Shown here one piece after another: positions 52,557 to 62,390 of a DNA stretch of 64,000 bases (positions within the stretch are counted from its first letter, which is position 1; each line of letters opens with the position of its first letter). Source of the DNA: Paenibacillus albus (GTDB lineage Bacteria; Bacillota; Bacilli; Paenibacillales; Paenibacillaceae). Both the position numbers and the translations under genes were made by a program. The DNA lies in contig NZ_CP034437.1 in assembly GCF_003952225.1 (NCBI RefSeq), positions 5,594,501 through 5,658,500 of the forward strand, written 5' to 3'. The notes under the pieces were generated by a model. That model ran no database searches. It had not been told where the DNA came from and saw only the letters and a list, made by a program, of their open reading frames with translations.

Positions 52557-53303
52557 CTAAGGCTCGATTAGCCCGTACTTGCGCTTCACTCGCTCCAGCT
52601 TCTCGATCATCGGACGCGACAGCACGAAGAGAAAGAACATCGTCGCTGCTGCGTGAACGAGATCGAACCAGAACCCCGATGCATACGAAGCGAGAACCGC
52701 TTCTTTCGTAAGCAGCGGCATAAACATCATGACGGATGCGATATTCATAATACCGCCGTAGATAACGAGGGTAACGAGCCCGCCGAACACGCAGAGCGAC
52801 AGCCTGCTTCGCCGCAGCCAACCTTTCTGGAACATGATGCCCGCCAGGAAACCGATAATGCCGAAGCAGAACATTTGCCAAGGCGTCCACGGCCCTTGTC
52901 CGAACATGAAGTTCGAGACGAACCCTGCTGTCGCCCCAACAAGGAAGCCCGCTTCCGCACCAAAAGTGACTCCCGCGATAATGACAATTGCAACGACCGG
53001 CTTGAACTGCGGCAGCATGAAGAATGCCGAGCGGCCTGCAACCGCAATAGCTGCCAACACAGCGATAACGATCAGTTCTCTTGCCTGCGGCTTGCGGCGC
53101 TCGAATACCATTGCGAACGGAATTAGCGTGTAGAGAATGATTAACAGGCTTATAAAATAATATTTGCGGTCATCAAAGACAAGGATGCCAAGGAGCATCG
53201 TAGCTGGAATGACGGCGAGAATGAGAAATGCAGACAGCCACGTCCGCCGACTTAGACGACGTTCATTTTGCCGGCTTCGTTCGATTACTTGATGCTCCGA
53301 CAT
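52557..53303 (-). CDS. ECF transporter S component, probably for cobalamin
   Basis: The 248-residue membrane protein has about six or seven helices. ELIVIAVLAAIAVAGRSAFF with the small-residue helix 1 motif, then VIIAGVTFGAEAGFLVGATA and FGQGPWTPWQMFCFGIIGFL are typical of ECF S components, which bind the vitamin with nanomolar affinity and toppled by the energising module. Last gene of the five-gene operon behind a cobalamin riboswitch; its start overlaps the ATPase gene by 19 bp without its own ribosome site, so it is translationally coupled. Substrate cobalamin or another corrinoid is inferred from riboswitch and neighbours. Confidence 0.8.
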   Translation of the reverse strand: MSEHQVIERSRQNERRLSRRTWLSAFLILAVIPATMLLGILVFDDRKYYFISLLIILYTLIPFAMVFERRKPQARELIVIAVLAAIAVAGRSAFFMLPQFKPVVAIVIIAGVTFGAEAGFLVGATAGFVSNFMFGQGPWTPWQMFCFGIIGFLAGIMFQKGWLRRSRLSLCVFGGLVTLVIYGGIMNIASVMMFMPLLTKEAVLASYASGFWFDLVHAAATMFFLFVLSRPMIEKLERVKRKYGLIEP

Positions 53304-54976
53304 CGCCGCACCACACTTTCAATCGTAATGGCATCCTGCCAATGCTGCCTCGCGATCCGGTTCGCCGCGGTCGTATAGAAGCTGTTGCCCGAGAAGAAAG
53401 CATTCGTCTTGCTTGATGCGATGACTGTGCCATCGAAGAACATCGCACATACTTCCCCGAACCGAGCACAGAACTCGATATCATGCGAGACCATGATAAT
53501 GGTGACGCCTCTCGCCTGCAGCTCCCTCAAGAACTTACCAAGCTTAGCTTTAAAAAAACCATCCAGCCCCTTCGTCGGCTCATCCAAAATAAGAATTGTC
53601 GGTTCAAGCAGCAGCACCTTCGCAAGCGCCGCACGCTGCTGCTCCCCTCCACTTAGATCATACGGATGCTTGGACAGAAGCTCCGTAAGCTCGGCCCACC
53701 GGGCAACAGCATCGACCGCCGCCTTCTTCTCTTCCTTCGGCAGCTTTGAATCAGACAGCATCTCATAGAGATCAAGCTCAACCGTCTTCTTCACGAACAA
53801 CGCCTGCGGGTTCTGCGGGAGTACGCCCAGCCGTTTCGTGAACAACTCACGCGCATTCATTGATCCTGGAGAGCGCCCATCTATAAGCACCTTGCCCCGA
53901 AAAGGCTTGTAGATACCGCTAATCATAGACATTGTCGTTGACTTGCCGGTGCCGTTACCGCCAACCAAGCAATAGAACTGGCCTTTCCGTACAGAGAAGG
54001 ACAAATCCTTGATGATATCCGGTCCGTTCTTCTCGTATTTGAACCAGACATCCTTGAATTGGACGGCGAAAGGCTCTTCGTACTGCTGTGATAATAACGA
54101 GTCTGCCTCGTTAACGGCAGAGTCCACAGCTGCATGTCCGATATAATTATCCAACCATTGCCGTCCTTCTTTCACAGTTAGCGGCGGTATTGATTCTATA
54201 TCGGAATAGCAAGATGCAGCTGCATAGATTTGCATTGCCGCAGGCATTGCGGCAAACATTGGATGCTCCATCGTATGCAGCAGCTTGCCGATCGCACGCG
54301 GTGTATCGTCCGCGATTACCTGCCCTGCATCCATAACAATGAGGCGATCTGCAGCAGGCAGTACTTCCTCCAGCCGATGCTCCGTCATGATGATCGTTGT
54401 GCCCAGCTCTTGATTGATGCGCCGAATCGTGTCCAGCAATTCAATCGCTGCAATCGGGTCGAGCTGCGAGGTCGGTTCATCGAGAATGAGGACCGAAGGG
54501 TGCATCGCCATTACAGAGGCAAGGCTCAGCAGCTGCTTCTGCCCGCCTGACAGCTCCGTCACCGGACGATGAAACCAAGTCTGGATGCCGAAGAAGCTCG
54601 CCATCTCGGCGACGCGCTGCCGAATCGTTTGCTGATTGAGACCAAGACTCTCCAAGCCGAACGCCAGCTCATGCCACACTTTATCGGTTACGATTTGGTG
54701 TTCTGGGTCTTGCTGTACGAAGCCGATCTCCGATGCTTGCTCTCGTTCGCCAGCTTCTGCAATTGCCCTGCCCTTATAGCTGATATTCCCGCTTCTTGTG
54801 CCATGCGGTGTAAGCACCGGCTTCAGCTGGCGGAGCAGCGTGCTCTTCCCGCAGCCCGACTTCCCGGCGATAACGATAAACTCTCCGCTGCTTATGGACA
54901 GGCTAATCTGCGACAGCGCGGCTTGACTCTGCTCCGGGAAAACAAAGCTTACATCCTCGATGCGATAGATTTCCAT
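53285..54976 (-). CDS. ECF transporter fused double ATPase
   Basis: The 563-residue protein starts at ATG 54976 (MEIYRIEDVSFVFPEQSQAA) after GGAGGAA. It fuses two ECF ATPases. Domain 1 has Walker A AGKSGCGKST (about 37-46), LSGGQKQLLSLA and VLILDEPTSQLDP. Domain 2 has GGNGTGKST (near 343), LSGGEQQRAALA, ILILDEPTKGLDG and VSHD. All motifs are intact. It powers vitamin import with the T component EcfT and a substrate-specific S component. It overlaps the T gene by 28 bp and the S gene by 19 bp. A dedicated rather than shared energising module is implied by the operon. Confidence 0.92.
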   Translation of the reverse strand: MEIYRIEDVSFVFPEQSQAALSQISLSISSGEFIVIAGKSGCGKSTLLRQLKPVLTPHGTRSGNISYKGRAIAEAGEREQASEIGFVQQDPEHQIVTDKVWHELAFGLESLGLNQQTIRQRVAEMASFFGIQTWFHRPVTELSGGQKQLLSLASVMAMHPSVLILDEPTSQLDPIAAIELLDTIRRINQELGTTIIMTEHRLEEVLPAADRLIVMDAGQVIADDTPRAIGKLLHTMEHPMFAAMPAAMQIYAAASCYSDIESIPPLTVKEGRQWLDNYIGHAAVDSAVNEADSLLSQQYEEPFAVQFKDVWFKYEKNGPDIIKDLSFSVRKGQFYCLVGGNGTGKSTTMSMISGIYKPFRGKVLIDGRSPGSMNARELFTKRLGVLPQNPQALFVKKTVELDLYEMLSDSKLPKEEKKAAVDAVARWAELTELLSKHPYDLSGGEQQRAALAKVLLLEPTILILDEPTKGLDGFFKAKLGKFLRELQARGVTIIMVSHDIEFCARFGEVCAMFFDGTVIASSKTNAFFSGNSFYTTAANRIARQHWQDAITIESVVRRCRSIK

Positions 54977-55842
54977 CTGACTTCCTCCACAATCGCTAGA
55001 ATAATAGGCAGCATATACAGCAGGAAGCATGCGATGTAACCCATGATACCAACCGTTGACACTGCACCTGCATGAATCGAGGGGAAGTAGCGAACCGAAT
55101 TCGCTCCCGTCGCAGCCCCTGCGAGCACAAGCCCAATTAACAGCAGCATAGCCATAAGCAGCAATCGGTCTCTACGGTCAATACGAACGAGCGTGAAGCT
55201 TGTCCGGTTCGGCAGCCCGTAGCCGCGCGACTTCATCGAATCGCTTGTGTCGATTGCAGACTCCATCGCCCACGATGTAATCATAGATAAGATACGAAGG
55301 CCGCTGCGCGCGCGCTGGATTAAACTGCCTTGCGTGACATCTCTGCCAATGCAGCGCTGCGCCTGTGAAATCACTTTAATCTGGTGCATGTACCTCGGCA
55401 CGAAGCGAAGCGTCATCGCTAGCACTAGCGACAGCGACGGGACAGCTCTTCCGAGCAGAAACATCAGCTTGTCCGAGGTCATAACCGAATTAAAGCAGGA
55501 GAACCAAATGATAACCGTGATGTACATGAAAGCAGACGCGACGCCGTATAGCACCGATTCGAGTGTAATCGGATTACCGTTCTTCAAGTAAAACAGGATG
55601 GTTACACCAGCGTGATTAAAGACAGGATTGGCAGCTGCCATTACAAGAAGCAATGGCAGCATGTATAGCAGATTGAACTTCGCGCCTCGCGCGCCTCTTA
55701 ACAGCAGCGAGTATGTCACAGCAGCGACAAGCGCAAACAACTGCAGCAAGGGATGCAGGAAGAACATGGTGAAGCCGACCACTGCCGTAAAATACACCGC
55801 ATTCACAACCGGATGGCAAGAGGCAAAAGCATCCCTTCTCAT
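54949..55842 (-). CDS. ECF transporter T component (CbiQ/EcfT family)
   Basis: The 297-residue membrane protein starts MRRDAFASCHPVVNAVYFTA, the CbiQ/EcfT family opening with HP-x-x, has five or six helices and the cytoplasmic coupling helices with A-R-G-like signatures: AQRCIGRDVTQGSLIQRARS and DTSDSMKSRGYGLPNRTSF. The latter holds the conserved SRGYG motif that docks on the ATPases. It connects the double ATPase with the S component. GGGAGGG precedes the ATG, which overlaps the upstream DUF4430 gene by four bases. Confidence 0.9.
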   Translation of the reverse strand: MRRDAFASCHPVVNAVYFTAVVGFTMFFLHPLLQLFALVAAVTYSLLLRGARGAKFNLLYMLPLLLVMAAANPVFNHAGVTILFYLKNGNPITLESVLYGVASAFMYITVIIWFSCFNSVMTSDKLMFLLGRAVPSLSLVLAMTLRFVPRYMHQIKVISQAQRCIGRDVTQGSLIQRARSGLRILSMITSWAMESAIDTSDSMKSRGYGLPNRTSFTLVRIDRRDRLLLMAMLLLIGLVLAGAATGANSVRYFPSIHAGAVSTVGIMGYIACFLLYMLPIILAIVEEVRWKSIASRM

Positions 55843-56897
55843 CGCTTCCCTCCCGCCGCGGTTTGTCCACCGCCGATGTCTCTTCCAAGGTCACAGGTAT
55901 ACAGCCACTCGATGACGTCGCCATCCTTAAGCTTATACCTGCTCGCGCCGTAATTCGGGAACCATCCGTTCACGCGATACATCCAGCCGCTGAGCTCGCC
56001 GCAGTCAAATTCATAAATATTATGAATGCCTTCTATATAATTGCTGTTATAGAGCGGCGTCATCTCGAACTCCATGTGGATCTTATGCTTCTTCATCTCT
56101 CGCAGCAGCACATCGAACACCGTTTCCCCCTCATAGAAGGTTACCTTCTGCTCTGCGAAAATAATGCCGTCCTCTGGCAGCACTTCCAGCTTGTCCGGAT
56201 CGAAATCGTCCAAATGATCAAGAATCGTTTTGCAGCTGACGGACAATGTCACTGTGAGCGGCTGCTTCTTGTCCACCTTGGCGTCCTGCCACTCAACGGG
56301 AGCAGGCTTGCCAGCAGGCACTTTATCTGTAAGGTAGGGATCTTTCTTACCGGTGTTCGTGCCGCTTGCGGCAGATTGGGTAGGCGGCTTAGTGGTGACT
56401 GCTGGCTTTGAATTCATTGCTTCGTCTTTCGATGATTCGTCTGTCGCTGGTTTGGTCGACGACGGCTTAGACGACGATGGTTTGGTCGTCTCTGGCTTGT
56501 CAGACGCTGGCTTACCGGTCGAAGAAGAGCCTGTATTCGCCGCCCCCTTCGTCTGCGAATCGACGACTTCGGCTGGCTTCGTTGGCTGCTTCGTCTCCGA
56601 TGGCTCAGCCGATTGTTGCGGCTTTGCTTCTGCCGCTTTATTCGGCGGATCATACTTCAGCGTCTCTCCAGCTGCCGCTTGACCAGCAGCGGGAGCTTGC
56701 GCAGCTAGTTGCTGCTCGGACGCGGTTGAATCTGCCTCAGCATCGGAAGTGGCATCTCCCACCTCTGCTACGGCAGGCGCGGACACAGCTGCATCGCTGC
56801 CCTTCGCTGGCTGATCGCTTCCGCCCCAATAGAACGCGGCGGCAAGGACTGCGATTATACCAATCGCAGCCAGCCATTTGCGCCGTTTCATATTCAT
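55839..56897 (-). CDS. Membrane-tethered DUF4430 (transcobalamin C-terminal-like) protein
   Basis: The 352-residue protein has an uncleaved-type N-terminal membrane helix (WLAAIGIIAVLAAAFYWGG; no lipobox Cys), a long flexible Ala/Ser/Lys/Pro/Thr linker (about 28-205) that could span the cell wall, and a C-terminal DUF4430 domain (about 213-345). The latter has TFYEGETVFDVLLREMKKHK, FDCGELSGWMYRVNGWFPNY and YKLKDGDVIEWLYTCDLG. DUF4430 is the Pfam family that also covers the C-terminal beta domain of transcobalamin and intrinsic factor. Its start overlaps the big surface gene by four bases. It probably receives corrinoid near the membrane for the ECF transporter; this role is inferred. Confidence 0.85.
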   Translation of the reverse strand: MNMKRRKWLAAIGIIAVLAAAFYWGGSDQPAKGSDAAVSAPAVAEVGDATSDAEADSTASEQQLAAQAPAAGQAAAGETLKYDPPNKAAEAKPQQSAEPSETKQPTKPAEVVDSQTKGAANTGSSSTGKPASDKPETTKPSSSKPSSTKPATDESSKDEAMNSKPAVTTKPPTQSAASGTNTGKKDPYLTDKVPAGKPAPVEWQDAKVDKKQPLTVTLSVSCKTILDHLDDFDPDKLEVLPEDGIIFAEQKVTFYEGETVFDVLLREMKKHKIHMEFEMTPLYNSNYIEGIHNIYEFDCGELSGWMYRVNGWFPNYGASRYKLKDGDVIEWLYTCDLGRDIGGGQTAAGGKR

Positions 56898-59800
56898 GAG
56901 GCGCTTCTCGCGTCCGTCATATCGTAAAGCCTTGTTTGACCATGCGCGTAACGATCATATGCAGCGAGCGCGTACAGCGCTTGATCGGTCGCCATCGGGT
57001 CGACCTCGCCCGGCGTTGCACCGCCATTGCTTATTCCGCCTGATTTGACATGATAAAATCCTCCGCTTGGCGCTGCATAGCCGAGCAATGCATCAAGCGC
57101 GGAATGCCCATTCTTGATGAATCTTGCATCTTGGTCCGGATTGATTGCTAGACTTGTCAGCGCTACAACCACTTGCGCGCTGCTCTCCAAGTTCGCCGCG
57201 CCATTGCTGACGAAGCCGCCGTCCGATTGCTGATGACTGGACAGCCAAGCAATCGCTTGATCCACTGCCGTCCGCACAGCTGGATTCGACTGCACATACG
57301 GAGCCAAGCTTTGCAATGCCATCGCGGTCACATCGGTATCCGCTTCCGCAGCCTTTTCCCCAAGCGCCCAGCCGCCATCTGCGAGCTGACGCTTCAGAAT
57401 GTATGCGATGAGCAGCTCTCTCGTCGTCTGCGTCTTCCCGCTTGCTGCTGCGGGAATGCTGTATGCCTTGCTGTCCAGTGCGATAAGAGCAAATATCGGT
57501 CCGTTAATGCCCTGCTTCACAACCGAATCGAAGTCAGCAAGCCGCTCGAGCAAGTTATAGCCGGCGACGTTAGCAACGCTTCGTCCGATTGCCGTCAGCG
57601 CCAGAATGGCACGGTCATACTCCGTATATTTCACATTGTGCAGAACGCCTGACTTTTCTTTGAGCGTCTTCTCCAGATTGTTATAGTACTTTGCATAATA
57701 GGCCTCCGGCACTTGAATGCCTGAACGAGCAAGTCCGATGACCGACCATTCACCGCCAAGCGTCGAAACGATCGGGTCTGTGACCGTCTGCTGAACATAA
57801 GTCGCTGTTAAAGCAAGTTGGCGATCGACCTTGCTGCCGGCTCCTGTCTCTTCCGCGTGCTTACTCTTGTAATCAAAAGCACGCATCGCAACGACGAACG
57901 ACATTTCGCGCGTAACCGGCTGTACAGGATTGAATAAACCGCCGCTGCCTGTCATCAGCTGCAAATCGGCAATTGTCTTCACGTCCGCTTGCGCCCATGC
58001 CGACACCTTGGCGATGTCCTTCAGCGCAGTTGTCTTTGCAGTAGGTGCAATGTCGAGCGCGCGGGCAACCATAACCGCCATTTGTTCGCGAGTAATCGTC
58101 TCATTGGGCTTGAATTGATCGTTAAACCCATTGATGATGTTCGCTTCATATGCAGCACTCACATAAGGCGCGAACCATGCTTGCTTTGGAACATCCTTGA
58201 AGCTGCTCGCTTTCACTTCCGTCGTTTTCAAACCGAGCGCATTCACCATCAGCTTCGTAAACTCCGCTCTCGTAACGGAGGCTTTCGGCATGAGCTTATC
58301 TCTGCTGCCCTGTACGAAGCCTTTCTTCACAGCCGCTTGAATCGCTTCATAAGCCCATGCTGCGATCTGATTCGCATCTTTGAATTGCGTGCTCAGCCCT
58401 TCATCGGTACGGGTCGTATACATTACATAAGCTGTAAAATGATTCGTCTTAATGATCAGATCATCCCCGGCAACGTACGCATACGTGACCTTGGCATTGC
58501 CTTTCGTAGCACCCTGCTCTGCGGAGTCATAAACATGAATCGGCGTGAACACTTCTCCTTCGATGTAGCCGGCGAGCTGCCCTTTGCCACCTTTTATAGT
58601 CAGTGTCAGCGGTGAATCGAACAGATACGACTGATCTGCATCCCCCATGACAAAAGCTTGCTCTATCGAACCAAGCGACTCGCCTGCTGCAAGCTGCTGC
58701 TGAATTTGACTGTTCAGCTTCGTATCCTGCACATCGAGGCTTGTGAACAGTTCGATCGAGTCGCCGCCTTCGAGCAGCTTCGTTCCTTTCTCAATCGCGA
58801 GCGACAGCTTGCCCTTGTTAGCCGTAACCTGCGGAAGACCTTCTCTCGCAGCTGCGATATCGAGAATGACTTTCTGCTGAGTCGCGGGGATGTTGAGGGT
58901 GAACTGATCTGTGTCTTGCTGCTCATGCGTGATTTTAACGATATAGCTCTGCTGCCCATTACTTGGAACTTCGATGACGTTGTCTTTGACAGCCGGACTA
59001 TCGCCAGATCCGCCAGCACCTCCTGTACCTCCTGTACCACCGGACTCTCCGGACCCTCCACTCGGTGGCAAGTTGCACGGGTCTTGGCCTAAATCACAGC
59101 CGAGGTCAAGCGTATAACGCCAAGCAACAACGTCATTCTGCTTCAGCTTGTACAGCCCGGCGCTGTAGTTTGGAAATACGCCGTTAACCGAGTACATCCA
59201 TCCGCTGCCCGAGCCGCGATCGAATTCACTCAATCCGTCGATCCCTTGCACGTAGAGCGTCGCTCCCGAACCTATCTTGCGGACCTTGTCAGGCAATTCA
59301 CGCGCGAGCACCGTGTATGCCGTATCGCCTGTTTGCAGCGCAACTTGCTTCGATGCGAGTATCGTCCCTTTCTGGTCATCGCCTGTTACCGACAGCGTGA
59401 CGTACTTGGTTGTCGGCGGTTGTACGACCGGCTTCTCCGCAATGGTGAGCGACTGAACCGTACGAACGACGCTTGGCGCTTTATTCGCCTGATACCCCGT
59501 AATTCCCATCGAATACGTGCCTGCCGAAGCAATGCCGCTGTTGAATGCAGCTACGCCGCTAGCATCCGTTGTTGCCTGCGCGCTGCCGATCTTCACCTGA
59601 ACGCCAGCCGCCGCCGAAGTAACAACCTCGCTGCCGCTGTCGCTCCAATTAAGCTTGGTTTTCTTTACGGTTACTCGGAACGCTTCGCCTGCTTTTGGTT
59701 CAGCAGGTGTGACCTGTACGGAATCGACGAGCTGCGTGTCATCGCCGCCATAGTAGACGACGAGTTTATCGGACTTCTGCAGATCAAAAGCATCCATCCC

Positions 59801-61981
59801 CACTACAGGGAAGCTCCATTGTCCATCACGAAGCACGTCAAACAGCCATCCGTCGTAGCCGCCATACTTACCGGCTTCAATTCCATTTATTGAGGAGACA
59901 TACTTCCCATATTGAGAGTCCGTCACATTAATCGGGATTTGATTTTGCTGTAAAAGCTCCTCTAGCGAAGCAAGAGCCTTCGTGCCGCTCAGCCTGCCTG
60001 AAGCAATAGAACCTTCCGGTCCTTCCACTTGAACTTGCACGTACGGCTGCGGCTTGCCGAACTGGTACAGCTTACCCGTGCCGTGGACGAACATTTCATA
60101 TGCGCTGAGCGCTTGTGATGCTTGCTCGGTTGCCATAAAATCTGCAGCTGCCTGCGGATCAGTAACATGCGAGAAACCACCGTCAGCTTGCAGATACGTG
60201 AACAGCTTGTCCAGCAGTGTAATGCCATTCTTCGTAAAAGGCGTGCTCGTTGGGTCGATACCGTTCGAAGTTAGAGCGATAATTGCCTGTGCTACCCCTT
60301 CGCTAGAATCAACATCGGAAGACAAATAGCCGCCGTTTGACTGCTGGTTTGCCGAAAGCCAGTTAACGGCCTTCTGCCCCGCTGTCTGAACAGCCGATTG
60401 AGTTCGATATGGGGCTAGCGCCGTCAGAGCCATCGCCGTTATGTCCGGATCACTGACATCGCCGAATAAGGCGAAACCGCCATCGTTTTTTTGCTTAGCG
60501 AGAATAGACTCAAGCAGCTTGTCCCGATTCCAAACCGCATTAGCAGGCGTACTGAAATCACCGCTATCGAGGGCAAGGAGCGCGAATATCGGTCCATTTA
60601 GACCCTGCGCCTCCATGACGCTGCTGTTGTAAATTTTTTCGACGAGGTCCAAACCGCCATAATCCGTTGCATCCAGATGCATAGCAGACAATGCCATCAC
60701 AATCCGCTCATAATCCGTAACAAGGGCATACTCTGGATACTGCTTCATGAAATCTAGGAAACTATCAACTGCGGTTAAGTAGCTAGACGGCACCTCATGT
60801 CCGGCACGGATAACGGCAATCGCCTGCCATTCCCGGTCCTGCCAGTTACCCCCGCCAAGGATCCACTCCGTCGGCCAGCCATACGCCTGACGAGCACCGA
60901 AGTCATAGAGACGGCCTTCAGCTTTGACAAAAGAATCATATGCAATAAGTGCCTGCAGTGCTTGCTCTGTCGCCAATCCGTTCGACGTGCCAGTGGGTGT
61001 ATGCGAGAAGCTGCCATCAGATTTGCGGAAGGCGAGCAGCTTCTGAACGAGATTGACATCGTTCTTCGTAAATCGGCTGTCGGTCGGATCAATACCGTTT
61101 GACGTAAGTCCAATGATCGCTTGCGCGACGCTTTCGCTTGCATCCGATCCATAGGATAAGTAACCGCCATTCGCTTGCTGATGCCCGCTTAGCCAATTGA
61201 CCGCCCCGTCAACAGCTGGTTTTACCGTATCCTGCGTCGCGTAAGGCGCCAGCGCAATGAGCGTCATCGCTGTTATATCCGGATCGCTGGCGCCGCTGCC
61301 AAGCGCGAAGCCGCCATCTTCCTTCTGTTTCGCAATGATTGCCGCGACGAGCTGATCGCGTGACCATAGTGCATCAGCCGGCACTTCATAGCTGCCGCTG
61401 TCGAGCGCAATCAGCGCATAGAGCGGTCCGTTCAGCCCCTGATTCACCATTCGTTCGCTATTGTAGATACGCTCGATGAGATTGTAGCCTGCGAACTTCG
61501 TCGCGTCTTGATGCGCGGCCGTAAGCCCGATTACCGTTCGCTCGTAATCGGTTACGAGGGTGAACGTTCCTTTCGCTGCAACCAGCTTCTTGTAGAGTGC
61601 CGGAATATAGCTGCTCGGGAGCGGCTTGTTTATTTTCGATAGTCCAACTGCTTGCCAATCGTCAATTGTTGTCTTGCTTTGAACCGTCAGTGCCGCCGCT
61701 TCAATCGCTGCTTCAACGTCCTGCAGCAGCGGATCTGCTAGTGTCGTCAGCTCCTGCGGCTGGGACTCCGGCTGAGAGGCCGAATCTGCATCCGAATCCG
61801 ATTGCGGCTGCGATTGTGATTCTGAATCCGACTGCTGCGTTGGCGAATTCTCCTCCTCTGCCCGTGCCGCCAGCGGCTGCACGAAGCAACCAACAAGCAT
61901 TGCTAACGTCAACAACAGCGTGAACAGCCGCTTCTTGCTTCCCTTCCTGCGAATTGCCTGCTCGGATAATGATACCTGCAT
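56894..61981 (-). CDS. Giant SLH-anchored surface protein with transcobalamin-like modules
   Basis: The 1695-residue protein starts at ATG 61981 (MQVSLSEQAIRRKGSKKRLF) after AGGGAGAG and has a signal peptide (to about 42) and an acidic Ser/Gln linker. Two alpha/alpha-barrel modules (about 84-363 and 368-640) share DPDITAM, a GLNGP-x-x-AL-x-ALDS block and QQ-x-NGGYLS repeats, like the intrinsic factor/transcobalamin alpha domain and terpene-cyclase folds. Then come a DUF4430 domain (646-750), an Ig-like domain (752-850), a second DUF4430 (860-967: GSGSGWMYSVNGVFPNYSAG), a Gly/Ser linker, a beta-rich region (1000-1190), three SLH repeats (1197-1371) and a third alpha/alpha module (1384-1690). 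It is first in a riboswitch-controlled operon with an ECF transporter. Corrinoid capture at the S-layer is inferred. Confidence 0.85.
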   Translation of the reverse strand: MQVSLSEQAIRRKGSKKRLFTLLLTLAMLVGCFVQPLAARAEEENSPTQQSDSESQSQPQSDSDADSASQPESQPQELTTLADPLLQDVEAAIEAAALTVQSKTTIDDWQAVGLSKINKPLPSSYIPALYKKLVAAKGTFTLVTDYERTVIGLTAAHQDATKFAGYNLIERIYNSERMVNQGLNGPLYALIALDSGSYEVPADALWSRDQLVAAIIAKQKEDGGFALGSGASDPDITAMTLIALAPYATQDTVKPAVDGAVNWLSGHQQANGGYLSYGSDASESVAQAIIGLTSNGIDPTDSRFTKNDVNLVQKLLAFRKSDGSFSHTPTGTSNGLATEQALQALIAYDSFVKAEGRLYDFGARQAYGWPTEWILGGGNWQDREWQAIAVIRAGHEVPSSYLTAVDSFLDFMKQYPEYALVTDYERIVMALSAMHLDATDYGGLDLVEKIYNSSVMEAQGLNGPIFALLALDSGDFSTPANAVWNRDKLLESILAKQKNDGGFALFGDVSDPDITAMALTALAPYRTQSAVQTAGQKAVNWLSANQQSNGGYLSSDVDSSEGVAQAIIALTSNGIDPTSTPFTKNGITLLDKLFTYLQADGGFSHVTDPQAAADFMATEQASQALSAYEMFVHGTGKLYQFGKPQPYVQVQVEGPEGSIASGRLSGTKALASLEELLQQNQIPINVTDSQYGKYVSSINGIEAGKYGGYDGWLFDVLRDGQWSFPVVGMDAFDLQKSDKLVVYYGGDDTQLVDSVQVTPAEPKAGEAFRVTVKKTKLNWSDSGSEVVTSAAAGVQVKIGSAQATTDASGVAAFNSGIASAGTYSMGITGYQANKAPSVVRTVQSLTIAEKPVVQPPTTKYVTLSVTGDDQKGTILASKQVALQTGDTAYTVLARELPDKVRKIGSGATLYVQGIDGLSEFDRGSGSGWMYSVNGVFPNYSAGLYKLKQNDVVAWRYTLDLGCDLGQDPCNLPPSGGSGESGGTGGTGGAGGSGDSPAVKDNVIEVPSNGQQSYIVKITHEQQDTDQFTLNIPATQQKVILDIAAAREGLPQVTANKGKLSLAIEKGTKLLEGGDSIELFTSLDVQDTKLNSQIQQQLAAGESLGSIEQAFVMGDADQSYLFDSPLTLTIKGGKGQLAGYIEGEVFTPIHVYDSAEQGATKGNAKVTYAYVAGDDLIIKTNHFTAYVMYTTRTDEGLSTQFKDANQIAAWAYEAIQAAVKKGFVQGSRDKLMPKASVTRAEFTKLMVNALGLKTTEVKASSFKDVPKQAWFAPYVSAAYEANIINGFNDQFKPNETITREQMAVMVARALDIAPTAKTTALKDIAKVSAWAQADVKTIADLQLMTGSGGLFNPVQPVTREMSFVVAMRAFDYKSKHAEETGAGSKVDRQLALTATYVQQTVTDPIVSTLGGEWSVIGLARSGIQVPEAYYAKYYNNLEKTLKEKSGVLHNVKYTEYDRAILALTAIGRSVANVAGYNLLERLADFDSVVKQGINGPIFALIALDSKAYSIPAAASGKTQTTRELLIAYILKRQLADGGWALGEKAAEADTDVTAMALQSLAPYVQSNPAVRTAVDQAIAWLSSHQQSDGGFVSNGAANLESSAQVVVALTSLAINPDQDARFIKNGHSALDALLGYAAPSGGFYHVKSGGISNGGATPGEVDPMATDQALYALAAYDRYAHGQTRLYDMTDARSAS

Positions 61982-62057
61982 ACCTTCACTCTCCCTGAAC
62001 AAATAATAGTCGAATTGATATCATGCGGATCCCGCTTCATCAGAAACGGTCAGCGAA

Positions 62058-62087
62058 CAAAAAAAAGCCGCCCTTGTGGGCGGCTTA
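62058..62087 (-). terminator. Terminator in the cobalamin riboswitch expression platform
   Basis: On the minus strand AAGCCGCCCACAAGGGCGGCTT forms a GC-rich hairpin followed by a long T run, about 75 nt before the ATG and downstream of the aptamer. Confidence 0.9.
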
Positions 62088-62199
62088 ACATGCAGGCGGC
62101 GAAGAAGCGCTGCTCGAATGCAGCGCAAACAAAATAAAGCTGACAGCTTTCTGTCAAGCTTCCGCTTCCAATTCTCACCTCCCGAAGAATTGGGAAACA

Positions 62200-62390
62200 C
62201 TCACGCAAAGGCAGGTCTCCTGGCTCATGAATCATCGCTTCTCTAACCTTCCCAGTTCAATTAACGAACCAGTGGCGTTCTAATAGAGTCGCTCCTCAAT
62301 TACAGTGGCGGGACCGCGTCGGATTAGTACCGAACTTCCCTTTTAAGCAATCCTTGCAACTTGCAGGACTGCACCTTTACGGATCCGATA
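62200..62390 (-). promoter_or_regulatory. Cobalamin (AdoCbl) riboswitch
   Basis: The minus strand contains the ordered landmarks of the cobalamin aptamer: AAAAGGGAAG, CCGACGCGGTCCCGCCACTG followed by TAA, AACGCCACTGG, ACTGGGAAGG and, as the B12 box, GAGCCAGGAGACCTGCC. A terminator follows at 62058-62087. High cobalamin should stop transcription of the five-gene operon. This gives direct, sequence-level evidence that the surface proteins and ECF transporter serve corrinoids. Confidence 0.95.

Follow-up and report, generated by a model that had tools for sequence, protein, structure and literature searches.

Cobalamin import by an energy-coupling factor (ECF) transporter has been described for ECF-CbrT of Lactobacillus delbrueckii (Protein Data Bank (PDB) entry 6fnp), which carries cobalamin as well as cobinamide and consists of the S component CbrT, the membrane subunit EcfT and two ECF ATPases. 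According to prediction, eight S components share the ECF module of this organism; cbrT lies within nrdJ-cbrS-cbrT-pduO, and the prediction of CbrT is credited to Rodionov et al. (2009) (PMC5997447). In the vertebrate carriers transcobalamin (TC), intrinsic factor and haptocorrin, the domains assemble on cobalamin (PMC5599065), and DUF4430 has been placed at the C-terminus of TCN proteins (PMC4350170). In Bacteroides, BtuG-type lipoproteins are known to capture B12 at the cell surface for an importer (PMC6143338), and in the Shr-Shp-HtsABC heme relay of Streptococcus pyogenes the ligand moves from a surface protein to the lipoprotein that serves an ABC importer (PMC2266757). Here we describe a riboswitch-headed cassette of five genes in a 64,000-nucleotide stretch of the Paenibacillus albus genome, hereafter the window. 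In order, the genes encode a large protein A with S-layer homology (SLH) motifs, alpha/alpha barrels and DUF4430 domains, a tethered DUF4430 protein B, EcfT, a fused double ECF ATPase and an S component. The cassette likely captures and imports corrinoids. We further propose, tentatively, that Firmicutes possess a split, surface-anchored transcobalamin, in which an S-layer barrel and a tethered beta domain would close on cobalamin in trans and feed a CbrT-type ECF importer; the B12-binding pair would be common to these bacteria and the vertebrate carriers, with the fused modules perhaps standing near its origin. Unlike in ECF-CbrT, the ECF module is encoded in the same operon, its two ATPases form one chain and there is an additional S-layer capture protein. 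In contrast to the transcobalamin family, the bacterial core halves lie on separate surface-anchored proteins with several modules per protein, and no sequence match between the two was found. The BtuG-type system differs in serving a Gram-negative outer membrane, and its lipoproteins have folds other than the barrel and DUF4430, while the heme relay, with another ligand and other domains, offers an analogy only.

All five genes lie on the minus strand 3' of the riboswitch. With the chosen starts they overlap by 4, 4, 28 and 19 bp, values given in a preliminary description of this DNA and reproduced from the gene coordinates (Table 1), and Pfam, NCBIfam and PDB matches bore out the content that it had assigned to each of the five genes. 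The cobalamin riboswitch and terminator that it had placed ahead of the operon were also recovered. The aptamer scored 115.7 bits with the RF00174 covariance model, whose gathering score is 31.5, and a terminator-like hairpin is located between the aptamer and gene A. Four terminator-like sites were counted in 700 bases, compared with a shuffle mean of 0.7, and the leader 3' of the aptamer has a more stable fold than its own shuffles (z -3.38). We infer that the leader would read through without B12 and terminate in its presence. As the identical gene order was found again in many genomes, the arrangement is not due to chance.

The S component is classified by Pfam as an ECF S component, with Pfam and NCBIfam leaning weakly to riboflavin or folate types. 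When its single sequence was searched against the PDB, CbrT (6fnp_A) was matched at E 1.7e-8, followed by 4hzu_S (0.016) and RibU (3p5n, 0.04). Profile A1, built from 20 relatives, matched CbrT at E 8.8e-23, the sole other chain up to E 10 being 4hzu_S at 0.0093. CbrT, a cobalamin S component, is the only significant solved-structure relative, which argues against another vitamin type, the case that the preliminary description had named as fatal to its proposal. Shorter S components from other loci also match CbrT (L065, E 2.2e-17; L168, E 4.4e-20; here and below, L and G numbers denote loci and genomes). The EcfT protein has no Pfam or NCBIfam match and was recognised through its PDB relative, and Pfam finds two ABC ATPases in the fused ATPase (start read at 54976, open frame from 55030). 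Altogether, a CbrT-homologous S component is accompanied by EcfT and two ECF ATPases, the composition of ECF-CbrT.

Protein B combines a hydrophobic N-terminus with a DUF4430 domain, which bears the name 'transcobalamin-like C-terminal' in InterPro. An AlphaFold2 (AF2) model of this domain, computed from alignment A3 with 40 sequences, had a pLDDT of 91.8 and a pTM of 0.86. Of the 19 Foldseek matches at E <=0.001, 17 were chains of transcobalamin, intrinsic factor or haptocorrin and the other two belonged to PDB entry 3u7z; the next match followed at E 0.05. Comparison with VIA gave Z scores of 11.0-13.1 for the same structures and 7.0 for the next one, so that the predicted B domain has the beta-domain fold of the transcobalamin family. 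Among 101 B-type tethered ORFs at loci L033-L152, a hydrophobic N-terminal stretch was present in 99 and an adjoining lipobox in 18. Across 55 loci, mean pairwise identity was highest for the tethered DUF4430 (0.71), with values of 0.64 for S, 0.58 for the ATPase, 0.54 for EcfT and 0.51 for the barrel. An outer domain that is more conserved than the ATPase should contact several partners, in this case perhaps the ligand, the barrel and S.

Protein A probably has 1695 residues, as AGGGAG precedes the ATG at 61981; its open frame from the TTG at 62002, from which residues are numbered here, would give 1702. Pfam lists SLH, DUF4430 (two PF14478 stretches) and squalene-cyclase/prenyltransferase-type stretches in A, and DUF4430 in B. 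A PDB sequence search with A matched the S-layer protein Sap at E 7.5e-14, and the protein carries SLH motifs together with a putative signal peptide, the hydrophobic N-terminus being judged by eye. Barrel 3, which in alignment A2 (40 sequences) is 44-67% identical to the others, is the counterpart of a separate barrel and SLH protein in Clostridia. For barrel 2 and the abutting DUF4430 a, a first alignment (A4) of barrel-only and DUF4430-only rows misaligned the latter and was replaced by A5, built from fused and barrel rows. The AF2 model from A5 (33 sequences; pLDDT 90, pTM 0.75) predicts an alpha/alpha barrel followed by a beta domain on one chain, as in the transcobalamin family. Its top 15 of 929 Foldseek matches were transcobalamin, haptocorrin and intrinsic factor, at E 1.8e-9 to 2.9e-7, with cyclases beginning behind them at E 7.6e-5. 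The DUF4430 protein of 3u7z, RUMGNA_00854 of R. gnavus, deposited as 'putative metal binding protein', ranks beside the transcobalamin beta domains against both models. Residues 1550-1648 of A match the NCBIfam SCO2321 family with 66.9 of 300 bits, far under the cut-off, and may have an actinobacterial counterpart.

In all 53 complete named loci (defined below), different ORFs encode the best-conserved barrel and the tethered DUF4430. The core thus resembles a transcobalamin split into two parts that act in trans, in addition to the fused pair carried by A. We suggest that the SLH motifs place A in the S-layer and display its barrel and DUF4430 modules outside the cell, where the membrane-anchored DUF4430 domain of B would close on cobalamin held by a barrel, much as transcobalamin beta closes on alpha, with the halves on separate proteins. 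B would then pass the corrinoid to the CbrT-type S component, import being powered by EcfT and the double ATPase. We propose this clamp and the hand-over from B to S because the B domain is the most conserved and because the human TC halves assemble on cyanocobalamin (CNCbl): separately made TC-alpha and TC-beta join only with CNCbl, and TC-beta alone binds CNCbl (PMC5599065). The trans clamp, drawn by analogy with the human protein, appears credible though not quite probable. Alternatively, each protein may capture alone, the fused modules in A being full transcobalamin-like binders and B an independent beta-only dock for S that A loads by transfer; corrinoid capture would be common to both explanations and the clamp would differ. 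The position of DUF4430 a directly after barrel 2 agrees with independent capture, as do close fused pairs in L081 and L125. So do L154, L163 and L168, recovered from the same class outside the family among the matches listed, where a DUF4430 lipoprotein (lipobox by eye) adjoins a CbrT-family S component (43-100 bits) with no barrel within 3.2 kb. However, many clostridial barrel and SLH proteins beside B have no DUF4430 of their own and would therefore need a partner, either B or another upstream DUF4430 protein, and we regard independent capture as somewhat unlikely. The preliminary description had read A as an S-layer-anchored transcobalamin-type domain pair relaying corrinoids through B. 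The fold matches, the CbrT-type S component and the riboswitch linkage speak for such a system, in which binding and relay would follow the scheme above, but the core pair is split over two proteins.

Table 1. Features of the cassette in window coordinates, with residues of A counted from TTG 62002.
Feature	Coordinates	Strand	Basis
Cobalamin riboswitch aptamer, RF00174	62193..62393	-	cmscan 115.7 bits, E 2.7e-28, full model 1-189
Terminator-like hairpin, expression platform	62065..62086	-	9 pairs, loop 4, T run
Gene A, secreted SLH protein, ~1695 aa	56894..61981	-	ATG 61981 preferred over TTG 62002
A barrel 1, alpha/alpha, residues 84-385	60848..61753	-	53% identical to barrel 2
A barrel 2, alpha/alpha (predicted), residues 386-655	60038..60847	-	AF2 model 386-765, pLDDT 90; Foldseek, VIA
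A DUF4430 a, residues 656-765, abutting barrel 2	59708..60037	-	AF2 model of 386-765; PF14478
A DUF4430 b, residues 870-968	59099..59395	-	PF14478 best stretch 892-964
A three SLH motifs, residues 1206-1385	57848..58387	-	PF00395 E 4.2e-32
A barrel 3, residues 1386-1702	56897..57847	-	alignment A2
Gene B, N-terminally anchored DUF4430 protein, 352 aa	55839..56897	-	Pfam; hydrophobic N-terminus
B DUF4430 domain, residues 216-352, transcobalamin beta-domain fold (predicted)	55842..56252	-	PF14478 E 2.8e-19
EcfT (CbiQ-type) membrane subunit, 297 aa	54949..55842	-	PDB EcfT 5d3m_D E 2.3e-11
Fused double ECF ATPase	53285..54976	-	TIGR04520 + TIGR04521, 2 stretches each
CbrT-type S component	52557..53303	-	6fnp_A (ECF-CbrT); ~70 residues precede CbrT-aligned part

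The association with cobalamin riboswitches extends beyond the window. DUF4430 was detected in at least 64 of 147 genomes of the family and, among the matches listed there, 144 of 150 DUF4430 domains lie less than 12 kb downstream of RF00174 on the same strand, where about 0.3% would be expected. Conversely, 72 of 173 listed riboswitches, taken from the family genomes having DUF4430, are followed by DUF4430. Among the named loci, a riboswitch with fitting coordinates and strand was found for at least 37 of the 50 loci given, of 80, an approximate count as contig names were unmatched. At least one riboswitch match occurs in 48 of 50 cassette genomes, and among the matches listed the lone riboswitch sits at the cassette in six of them (G154, G166, G171, G174, G175 and G179).

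The gene set itself recurs widely. When loci were fetched around DUF4430 matches, 33 of 40 contained barrel, tethered DUF4430, EcfT, ATPase and S, the exceptions being L048, L054, L056, L065, L066, L071 and L072; as these loci were picked by DUF4430, the count shows order, not frequency. The barrel protein comes first in most complete loci of the 40, except in L053, L058 and L059. A scan with the S profile A1 confirmed at least 581 relatives, in Paenibacillus, Cohnella, Lutispora, Acetobacterium, Blautia, Pelotomaculum and many uncultured Clostridia, and the best 80 were used as named loci. The 63 named loci with at least 5.5 kb before S all encode EcfT and the ATPase, 59 encode a tethered DUF4430 and 53 a strong barrel, these 53 being the complete loci. 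In Clostridia, the set frequently comprises a barrel and SLH protein of ~550 aa, a tethered DUF4430, EcfT and the ATPase fused to S; in many cases another protein with DUF4430 and SLH is encoded upstream. In the phylum as sampled, DUF4430 was found in at least 121 of 398 genomes.

The window genome encodes three B12-binding domains and three tetrapyrrole methylases, a number of methylases insufficient to build the corrin ring. A BtuF-like binding protein (L002 1501-3032, named by eye) follows the second cobalamin riboswitch of this genome. The cassette might import a corrinoid precursor or a special cobamide, for example cobinamide, leaving B12 itself to BtuFCD. The control of both systems by cobalamin riboswitches in this genome is consistent with such a division, as is the transport of cobinamide by ECF-CbrT (PMC5997447). 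However, G050 and G062 have no close BtuF orthologue, and the one cobalamin riboswitch detected in each stands at the cassette. Their best BtuF matches, at 30% and 28% identity, are no closer than paralogues, and BtuF-like orthologues in three same-genus genomes are 62-89% identical. Riboswitch candidates were scored for 48 of 48 in G050 and 55 of 350 in G062, so that the single G062 riboswitch is a lower bound. Both genomes contain B12-binding proteins, one of which in G062 reads as MetH by eye, and four tetrapyrrole methylases each. Overall, we consider restriction of the cassette to precursors or special cobamides unlikely.

Several observations weigh against a split transcobalamin that feeds the importer. 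ECF-CbrT is active in proteoliposomes without any capture protein (PMC5997447), and, given the riboswitch-headed BtuF-like protein, the cassette is not the only likely route in the window genome. Among the matches listed, 101 of 173 riboswitches have no DUF4430 downstream, 6 of 150 DUF4430 domains have no riboswitch within 12 kb upstream on the contig, and 8 of 15 same-genus genomes, the window genome's own included, have no DUF4430. Two of the 50 cassette genomes (G176, G192) have no riboswitch among those matches, and in G162 and G183 the lone riboswitch lies away from the cassette. A strong barrel upstream of S is missing from 10 of the 63 named loci, four of which also have no tethered protein. 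In a comparison of distances, the barrel correlates with DUF4430 at 0.58 and with EcfT, ATPase and S at 0.62, 0.61 and 0.64, so that no special co-evolution of barrel and DUF4430 was seen. The fused-pair model, computed without ligand, deviates from transcobalamin by an rmsd of ~22 A over both domains, which would point to an unlike domain packing. PDB profile searches with barrel A2, DUF4430 A3 and fused A5 never reached transcobalamin, no transcobalamin positive control having been run. The lone barrel, finally, lies closer in VIA to squalene-hopene cyclase (Z 20.1) than to transcobalamin, haptocorrin and intrinsic factor (16.6-17.7), a gap of ~2.4 Z.

The kinship of the barrels is central to two further explanations. 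Sequence searches of A and B against the PDB returned cyclases, S-layer proteins or chance matches and no transcobalamin, again without a positive control run, and for the 40 barrels of A2 Pfam listed squalene cyclases and no transcobalamin alpha-domain model. Profile A2 matched squalene-hopene cyclase in the PDB at E 3e-13. As one explanation of these matches, the barrels could be terpene-cyclase-type enzymes on the cell surface. The catalytic motif of squalene-hopene cyclases is DxDD. At this position, 39 of 40 barrel-3-type sequences read DxD[I/V/M/L] and one DxE followed by a hydrophobic residue; the last acid is absent in 40 of 40, which argues against an enzyme. The barrels, moreover, are on secreted proteins, and a surface cyclase is extremely unlikely. 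As another explanation, the importer may take up corrinoids, with A serving as an S-layer scaffold or adhesin under B12 control and its barrels binding wall material such as glycans. The cyclase models matched by sequence would fit such a role, as would the structural neighbours of the lone barrel, which after squalene-hopene cyclase include sugar epimerases and glycoside hydrolases. However, the barrel protein is first in most complete loci and the barrel-DUF4430 pair ranks transcobalamin at the top, making a scaffold role distinctly unlikely. The structural match to the transcobalamin pair expected in the preliminary description exists in Foldseek and VIA, but the domain packing of the ligand-free model differs and the barrels match cyclases by sequence. 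As the sequence searches found no transcobalamin, the link to this family rests on predicted structures and on the naming of DUF4430 in TCN proteins (PMC4350170).

The literature searched contained no description of an S-layer transcobalamin-like capture half, and nothing was found in it on transcobalamin-like bacterial proteins, SLH with a cobalamin riboswitch, ECF with transcobalamin, or cobamide with ECF. The view that no characterised system has exactly this layout holds within that literature for the capture half, the ECF half being known. It is the S-layer capture half that appears new, as the ECF half is of a known kind and a DUF4430 lipoprotein stands beside a CbrT-like S component in other Bacilli. 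In L168, a DUF4430 lipoprotein, a CbrT-like S component and a cobalamin adenosyltransferase stand in a row, which suggests that cbrS of L. delbrueckii may encode a DUF4430 protein. 'cbrTUV' clusters were reportedly predicted in 2009. K8Q211, known by its database name alone, is called 'Additional lipoprotein component of putative cobalamin ECF transporter' (PMC9963975), a name from which an extra lipoprotein of cobalamin ECF transporters appears to have been suspected already in annotation. The split transcobalamin offers a testable function for DUF4430 and for a family of secreted barrel proteins, and a proposal for B12 capture by bacteria with a thick wall and S-layer, for which the literature searched gave the membrane step only (PMC5997447). 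As the cassette occurs in bacteria from animal guts, it may bear on gut B12 competition, and the origin of animal B12 carriers becomes a testable question.

Variants of the cassette were also observed. The double ATPase and S are fused in one chain of ~775-1151 aa in L055, L064 and many clostridial loci. In L065 (7804-10797, minus strand), a protein with a barrel, two DUF4430 and SLH is followed by a CbrT-like S component; EcfT was not found within 14 kb, and a shared ECF module would therefore be required. Downstream of S, L034 (2232-3542), L049 (11284-12591) and L083 (10774) encode an additional SLH protein of ~435 aa that contains a short stretch resembling DUF4430. In L085 (5046) and L130 (4932), the tethered DUF4430 is preceded by another S-like ORF (303-318 aa) that matches S partially at two places. 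Two plasmid records of 592 kb and 861 kb gave partial matches, and DUF4430 was also detected in the control genomes Methanosarcina acetivorans and Lactococcus lactis. L109, whose contig was binned, probably in error, with a Nitrososphaerota archaeon, has a clostridial-type cassette.

Elsewhere in the window, a c-di-GMP-I riboswitch (32494-32406, minus strand, 68.4 bits) precedes ORFs in 32323-27784 on the same strand, namely an MHYT-like sensor kinase of 588 aa and an overlapping 944-aa ORF of GGDEF/EAL-like type, with domains assigned by eye.

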